From positions 124,001 to 188,000 of the forward strand of contig CALSRO010000006.1 in the NCBI GenBank assembly GCA_943788775.1: a stretch of DNA of 64,000 nucleotides, in the 5' to 3' direction. Position numbers and translations under genes: made by a program. Shown here piece by piece: positions 11,854 to 12,823 of the stretch. Below the pieces are notes generated by a model, which worked only from the letters and a program-made list of their open reading frames with translations, searched no databases and had not been told where the DNA came from. Source of the stretch: an uncultured Flavobacteriales bacterium. GTDB lineage: Bacteria; Bacteroidota; Bacteroidia; Flavobacteriales_G; Salibacteraceae. Position 1 is the first letter of the stretch. Every line of letters begins with the position of its first letter.

Positions 11854-12201
11854 ATGAAAAAGATTACTCTATTATCCTTTCTGGCAATCAGTAGCTTGCT
11901 TCATGCCCAATACAACGCTTTAGATTTTGACGGGGTAGATGACTATGTCGAAATCCCAATGACGGATGATATCAATTTCACCGAAGATCAGGATTTTACG
12001 ATATTGCTTTGGGTTAAAATTCCAAACGATCAAACAGATCTCAGTGTCACTGACAACTCACTTATTGGTTTGTTTGATGGATATGCATATCCTTATGTAT
12101 TGCGCACTTATAACAGCACGTCCAGCGAATATGGCAAAGTTGGTTTCGGAAGATTCGATGGGATGGTGGTCCTATGTACTCCTCCAACATGGAATTTGTA
12201 G
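11854..12201 (+). pseudogene. Truncated LamG-domain secreted protein (fragment)
   Basis: The first 115 residues of what should be a longer surface protein: a signal peptide ending in HAQ, then the start of a concanavalin/LamG domain (ALDFDGVDDYVEIP, then FTILLWVKIP). The frame loses LamG character after FGRFDG and stops at 12201. The following 125 bases in any frame do not restore a LamG domain or a T9SS tail. Immediately downstream lies a GIY-YIG gene with palindromic repeats, so insertion may have cut the gene. A sequence error alone would not explain the missing remainder. Confidence 0.55.
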
Positions 12202-12327
12202 AATAAAATTCAATTCAGGTTTTTCTTACTTATTGGGATTCCAATGGAAGGAACCGTTTCAAGAAAAGTTAGTCTGGAGCACTTGTGGTGAGCTTGATGA
12301 AAGGAAGGTATAAATTATTTTAGCCAA

Positions 12328-12639
12328 ATGGCTAGAGGCTATATGTATATATTGAAATGTGCAAATGGCAGTTATTACTGCGGCAGCACAAAAGATTTGG
12401 ATAGACGTTTAGCCCAGCATCAGGCTGGAGAAGGAGCGAACCATACACGTAAATACGGTCCGGTGGAGTTGGTCTATTTTGAGGAGTTTAATCGAATTGA
12501 TCATGCCTTTAATCGAGAGCATCAAGTTAAAGGGTGGAGTCGAAAAAAGAAAGAGGCTCTGATTAATGGAAAGCCTGATTTATTGCCAATTCTCTCAGAG
12601 TGCACAAATCAATCGCACTGGTCGAATAAGAGCAGTTAA
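12328..12639 (+). CDS. Small GIY-YIG nuclease-domain protein
   Basis: A 103-residue single-domain GIY-YIG protein. The fold signatures are MYILK (GIY strand), YYCGST (YIG strand), the arginine in DLDRRLAQH, and the glutamate in NREHQVKGWSRKKK, so the active-site set is complete. Family members of this YhbQ/UPF0213 size cut or bind branched DNA, but cellular roles are poorly known. The gene lies between a truncated LamG gene and palindromic repeats (see findings). The ATG at 12328 gives the usual start. Confidence 0.88.
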   Translation: MARGYMYILKCANGSYYCGSTKDLDRRLAQHQAGEGANHTRKYGPVELVYFEEFNRIDHAFNREHQVKGWSRKKKEALINGKPDLLPILSECTNQSHWSNKSS

Positions 12640-12640
12640 C

Positions 12641-12823
12641 ACTTCGACTCCGCTCAGTGTACTGCACTCATTCTTCCCACATTCATATAAATAGGCGACT
12701 CCGCACATTGATCGAGTAGAGTCGAATTCTTATCGTATAGCATGAATAAAAGTGACTGAGCGGAGTCGTGATCTGGGTTCTTTTGTGTGCTAACCAAGGT
12801 GACTGAGCGGAGTCGAAGTCACC
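12641..12823. repeat. Cluster of dispersed palindromic repeat units (core ACTTCGACTCCGCTCAGT)
   Basis: An 18-base core, ACTTCGACTCCGCTCAGT, occurs at 12641-12658 and exactly inverted at 12802-12819. A third partial copy (inverted, ACTGAGCGGAGTCG) lies at 12754-12767, and a degenerate piece CGACTCCGC at 12696-12704. A near-match also lies at 48786-48800. The cluster sits between a GIY-YIG gene and an unrelated hypothetical gene. I recall very similar repeats scattered through other Bacteroidota genomes; that recollection was not checked here. Confidence 0.8.
12798..12823. repeat. Hairpin-forming repeat copy
   Basis: The last repeat copy is bounded by GGTGACT and AGTCACC, a perfect 7-base inverted repeat around a 12-base loop, so it can fold as a hairpin in RNA or single-stranded DNA. 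No T-run follows it, so it does not look like a terminator. Confidence 0.7.

Follow-up and report, generated by a model that had tools for sequence, protein, structure and literature searches.

Why should a small nuclease gene be accompanied by a set of hairpin repeats? The question is posed by a 64,000-nt stretch of contig CALSRO010000006.1 (GCA_943788775.1), which was analyzed as a whole and is called the window here; it belongs to the 3.1-Mb genome of an uncultured Flavobacteriales bacterium. A preliminary description had seen in it a candidate GIY-YIG nuclease cassette bounded by palindromic repeats, a possible mobile counterpart of REP/RAYT systems with a different enzyme. The locus itself, its homologs in other genomes and the loops of the hairpins bear on this idea in different ways.

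The nuclease and its repeats

The gene (12328–12639, + strand) stands alone, as described preliminarily. It encodes a protein of 103 aa in which a Pfam search finds a sole domain, PF01541 (E = 1.3e-19); the catalytic residues Y7, Y17, G19, R27, and E64 are all present and are invariant across the family. The AF2 model has a mean pLDDT of 88 and ~62 in the tail. The protein ends in SECTNQSHW, and the codons at 12601–12618 (+ strand) specify the tail motif CTNQSH (class CxNxSH), a putative loop-reading element by the rule described below.

The repeats lie on the downstream side only. An 18-nt core, ACTGAGCGGAGTCGAAGT, matches exactly at 12641–12658 (− strand) and 12802–12819 (+ strand), i.e., in inverted copies, and with three mismatches at 12755–12772 (+ strand); its chance expectation in the 64-kb window is 0.03, and the feature is real. 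The two exact cores belong to intact hairpins: copy 1 (12639–12660, − strand) has 4-bp arms, ACAC/GTGT, and copy 4 (12798–12823, + strand; DNA fold of −5.7 kcal/mol) has 6-bp arms, GGTGAC/GTCACC. Both present one loop, TGAGC(GGA)GTCGAA (TGAGCGGAGTCGAA), in two unlike stems. Two degenerate, overlapping copies (about 12696–12724, strand unassigned) match at 70–87%; the decayed copy 3 (12752–12775, + strand) retains TGAGCGGAGTCG, with two mismatches in the 14-nt and three in the 18-nt match, and has lost its right arm and last two loop bases. The three or four cores in both orientations reported earlier are thus there, two of them exact, and so is the hairpin credited with a 7-bp stem, although copy 4 reaches 7 bp only if the loop-closing T-A pair is counted. 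Genome-wide, exact matches to the 14-mer TGAGCGGAGTCGAA are confined to the nuclease locus, and with up to two mismatches there are 22 matches vs. 15 in the control; the 14-mer is therefore not dispersed in this organism. At the five remaining GIY-YIG loci of the genome, no loop copies are present (0/5).

Two neighboring features fared worse. The supposed palindromic repeat on the upstream side, GTGGTGAGCTTGA (12287–12299), has two mismatches to the 13-nt loop type, a match expected 1.6 times per window by chance; it lacks stem arms, and its loop class is wrong for the tail of the window protein. The weak resemblance at 12289–12301 (+ strand), TGAGCTTGATGAA, also with two mismatches and without arms, is probably no functional copy. 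The gene said to be cut off by the cassette is a short LamG-like ORF of 115 aa (11854–12201, + strand). Its truncation cannot be demonstrated because a Pfam search of the ORF gives no match and relatives give weak, short ones only (a 401-aa frame in G024 is 46% identical over 39 aa); with an intact homolog lacking among the relatives compared, the claim was dropped.

Are the repeats tied to the nuclease? Scanned genomes of bacteria and archaea yielded 80 homologous loci in Bacteroidota, Ignavibacteria, Calditrichota, Desulfobacterota, and one planctomycete; one of the six probes was the window's own tail peptide, which may inflate the number of CxNxSH proteins but not their loops. With the final pattern, a loop copy lies within 750 bp at 70 of the 80 loci; random anchors on the same contigs average 2.9 and reach 8 at most (1000 draws). 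With the first repeat pattern, copies numbered 4.8/kb just downstream of the gene and 0.047/kb beyond 2 kb, a difference of ~100-fold. Other PF01541 matches, of the UvrC/Cho type, have loops in one case of 25, and that one is a broken stand-alone gene; none of 30 Y1/RAYT transposase genes, most of them in repeat-rich genomes, has loop copies nearby. Among 198 Bacteroidia genomes, copies are more numerous where a relative of the nuclease exists (Mann-Whitney p = 4e-8, indicative only, as genomes are non-independent). The loop was unrecognizable at 10 of 81 loci, eight of which have a CxNxSH tail. These counts answer the check proposed earlier, whether core copies cluster at GIY-YIG genes rather than elsewhere, and strongly support the nuclease-hairpin link drawn by analogy to REP/RAYT; of the preliminary reading, this link survives, and the upstream boundary repeat and the LamG cut are not supported.

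Hairpin loops and nuclease tails

The hairpins have an unusual division of labor between stem and loop. Across 139 different hairpins the arms vary yet pair (710 of 973 positions, vs. 429, sd 12, when shuffled), and the loop is constant outside its middle, TGAG-X(2–3 nt)X'-TCGAA. Watson-Crick pairing of the inner X and X' is found in 273 of 285 copies, as C-G (178) or G-C (95). Three loop classes result, C(GNA)G, C(NN)G, and G(NN)C, a further class having emerged from a search of loci that at first seemed empty. The middle of the 14-nt class is GNA, which in DNA mini-hairpins is a stable triloop under C-G closure. The fold may even be fuller, including tandem G.A pairs and a bulged T; such a structure is absent from the output of the folding program.

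At several loci (L069, L070, L078, L099, L108, and L123) the repeats reach into the gene at its 3' end, and their translation yields protein tails such as FDSAQ, VEPVETT, and GGFEN. Near the more distant GIY-YIG genes, shared hairpin loops were sought de novo and were found in 17/34 cases, no better than the 12/30 and 6/25 of the controls, and no claim is made for distant homologs beyond the three classes; other loops close to L044, L046, L057, and L058 (e.g., GCGAGGAAG and GAGCGCAGCGA), likewise not above controls, are perhaps further specificities.

Good folds just outside genes are what transcription terminators or RNA elements of the nuclease gene would look like. Such a role is nevertheless hardly credible, and was already disfavored: the hairpins outside the gene are balanced in orientation relative to it (78 + and 65 −), a T-run follows only 11 of 348 copies, and Rfam gives no match at E ≤ 1.

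What, then, do the loop classes follow? The last ~15 residues of the nuclease fall into three main types, CxNxSH, NYTQ, and AYRD. At loci with loops, C(GNA)G accompanies CxNxSH in 35/36 cases, G(NN)C accompanies AYRD in 16/16, and C(NN)G accompanies NYTQ in 14/14, so that tail and loop class match at 65 of 66; the window protein, with its C(GGA)G loops, obeys the rule. Counted per copy, agreement is 94/102 for CxNxSH, 93/97 for AYRD, and 49/51 for NYTQ. The tail classes were set post hoc on the first set of loci; in the held-out set, which is small, the rule holds for CxNxSH in 11/11 (two of them ties), AYRD in 2/2, and NYTQ in 1/1, at identities down to 43%, with some loci at 43–49% to the window protein.

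A rule of this kind could arise without any recognition, if tail codons and nearby repeats were physically linked and swapped jointly by recombination. Tails and loops do change jointly many times on the core tree, as linkage would have it. Yet agreement with the tail is as close for upstream copies, from which the conserved core separates the tail codons, as for downstream ones (CxNxSH 39/42, AYRD 38/41, NYTQ 14/16 upstream); being linked to the gene's 3' end therefore does not suffice as an explanation. The rule also holds between proteins that are only ~43% identical, and we regard joint swapping as improbable.

A first protein tree divided cleanly by loop class, with four changes; the division was gone on a tail-free tree (30 changes of tail, 23 of loop). 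The tail columns had produced the split, which therefore speaks for the tail and not for inheritance by clade. Cores that are 92–97% identical and have unlike tails go with unlike loops, e.g., L063 (Bacteroidales) and L082 (Kuenenia), and the tail tracks the loop on many core backgrounds, with 55 of the 78 branches of the core tree open and the number of switches uncertain. Comparison of the sequences thus makes loop recognition by the nuclease a well supported proposal. A more ambitious formulation can be advanced tentatively, at somewhat less than even odds: an exchangeable tail would read the inner loop (CxNxSH for C(GNA)G, NYTQ for C(NN)G, AYRD for G(NN)C), and the gene with its matching hairpins would be a minimal mobile unit, able to seed REPIN-like repeats in different phyla with no HUH transposase involved.

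Spread of a candidate cassette

The association at the family's loci, the covariation of stems and of the inner pair, the tail-loop rule, and the spread into unrelated sites are best accommodated by a small cassette that spreads horizontally and combines a GIY-YIG nuclease with hairpin targets of its own, in which the tail selects the loop class; we put the probability of this reading at roughly 70%. The target would be a DNA hairpin in which nearly every stem sequence is tolerated provided that the arms pair; its constant loop, TGAG-X(2–3 nt)X'-TCGAA, would be closed within by the X-X' pair into a miniature loop (a GNA triloop or one of 2 nt), and the C-terminal tail would pick the loop class. 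From this arrangement we infer the cutting, the strand state, and the transposition: the enzyme would nick the hairpin loop when it is single-stranded, during replication or transformation, and the flanking hairpins, on one side or both, would delimit what is copied or transferred. The only targets remaining in the window's genome would be the gene's own.

Several observations speak to movement. The surroundings of the loci are unrelated, with 158 Pfam families in 119 neighboring proteins, and protein cores are 97% identical between Bacteroidales and a planctomycete. In one Bacteroidales MAG, two loci (L069 and L090) have ~500 bp in common, comprising an upstream hairpin, the gene (90%), and the inverted hairpin pair that follows it, and nothing recognizable in common beyond; other within-genome pairs had diverged too far to serve as evidence and were dropped. 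Genome G226 has the neighbors found in G058 and neither gene nor repeats between them, its intergenic DNA being unalignable. Mobility of the cassette, raised preliminarily together with a comparison of orthologous loci with and without it, is supported by these unrelated neighborhoods, cross-phylum cores, the repeated unit, and a gene-less neighbor pair (G226 vs. G058), short of an exact boundary: the loci compared showed neither a precise point of insertion nor a duplicated target site. A search of plasmids gave distant homologs only (<60% identity).

Other candidates for such evidence were set aside. G012 has the two genes that neighbor the nuclease in the window, without the nuclease and with two epimerase-like genes between them, and is not a clean empty site. 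Between these orthologs, at L176:8148–8193, it carries a different palindromic repeat, cagttcgagtgatttcgaggtacgagaaattgtatcgagaactg, the inner part of which resembles the G(NN)C layout. Cross-phylum DNA alignments gave no unit boundaries, homology being confined to the gene core.

Among the neighbors, type I restriction-modification genes are in excess (HsdS 8 and HsdM 6 vs. about one each in a distant-gene control). Nuclease homologs often lie between or beside hsdM and hsdS (L067, L081, L082, L292, and others), in the order HsdM-GIY-HsdS at the first three, and also beside type III res. At five Weeksellaceae/Flavobacteriaceae loci (L096, L100, L104, L118, and L124) the direct neighbor is a DUF6266 gene, a family not among the top families of the control set.

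Some genomes are rich in copies and have no stand-alone GIY-YIG gene: G070 has 243, G047 has 115, and G077 has 38; G070 lacks a Y1 transposase as well. The repeats are in this part independent of GIY-YIG genes, which the preliminary description had named as evidence against itself; in these genomes either the nuclease was lost or the repeats spread otherwise. In G070, G047, G123, and G154, inverted pairs 43–48 bp apart are found chromosome-wide, in the manner of REPINs. The G070 copies (L231, L237, L240, and others) come with GTCATTGCGAGGAACGAAGCAATC repeats; L229 is among the dispersed copies of G047 and L230 among those of G077.

Such pairs, and the genomes that have them without the nuclease, are what would be seen if the hairpins were REP/REPIN elements of the usual kind, owing their movement to a Y1 (RAYT) transposase or an unknown enzyme, and GIY-YIG genes merely landed in or beside their clusters. 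The 30 Y1 genes of the same genomes, however, have no loops nearby, private copies sit at the GIY-YIG gene where the genome has no dispersed ones, and passive landing would not be expected to produce a tail-loop rule. This account, already disfavored, is an unlikely one.

The strongest competitor is closer to the preferred reading. In Neisseria meningitidis, the GIY-YIG protein Ssn is specific for ssDNA, has target repeats in hundreds of copies, and affects transformation. A nuclease of this type would not be self-mobile: it would cut its targets in single-stranded DNA in natural transformation or replication, the repeats would guard or mark the locus, and ordinary horizontal transfer would do the rest. 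The working principle of the Neisseria enzyme lends weight to this view, a constant loop with a covarying stem suits single-strand recognition, and genomes with high copy numbers exist; against it, targets in the window's genome are found at the gene only, and two copies in one MAG that share nothing but hairpins and gene resemble the movement of a unit. We consider it nearly an even bet, a figure that overlaps with that given to the cassette, because the two agree on recognition and differ only in its purpose.

If the cassette reading is true, very common and mostly unannotated hairpin repeats of Bacteroidota and other phyla would gain an owner, and a second type of enzyme beside RAYT would carry REP-like repeats. 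A short protein tail would be a readable, exchangeable determinant of single-stranded hairpin recognition, with a possible use in ssDNA tools. A literature search found no paper on the association of nuclease and hairpins.

Comparison with known systems

The nearest solved relatives are stand-alone GIY-YIG proteins of the UPF0213/YhbQ type (PDB 1zg2, E = 2.8e-17; 1ywl, E = 2.1e-11), which have the same domain; the alignment ends ahead of the C-terminal tail. Free-standing GIY-YIG homing endonucleases are also small, mobile genes. Unlike these, which have one homing site, the present family occupies many unrelated sites, and the window protein scores 18.7 with the group I intron endonuclease model, whose cut-off is 56.

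With RAYT/TnpA-REP systems (PMC2817692, PMC3116915, PMC8266576), the family shares a single-domain nuclease gene, hairpin repeats that flank it in either orientation, closely spaced inverted pairs, and dispersed copies. REP elements have a GTAG or CGTC tag at one stem end (PMC3733652), and direct reading of the two intact window copies finds neither tag beside the stem. The enzyme is GIY-YIG here and an HUH tyrosine enzyme there; the loop is conserved and the stem variable; and no Y1 gene is associated, the window's genome containing no Y1_Tnp anywhere. Hairpins flank the gene on both sides in the family as a whole and downstream in the window.

The Ssn proteins are reportedly site-specific single-stranded nucleases of the GIY-YIG superfamily, described by Chenal and colleagues in 2025. 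Common to both are a small stand-alone GIY-YIG protein, target repeats around its gene (here at 70 of the 80 loci), many copies elsewhere in some genomes, and several specificities among homologs. The present family appears to differ in that its target is a hairpin with a constant loop and a free stem, its three loop classes follow a swappable tail, many of its loci have private copies only, and Bacteroidota dominate. By this comparison, the Ssn family of GIY-YIG ssDNA nucleases would provide the closest known principle.
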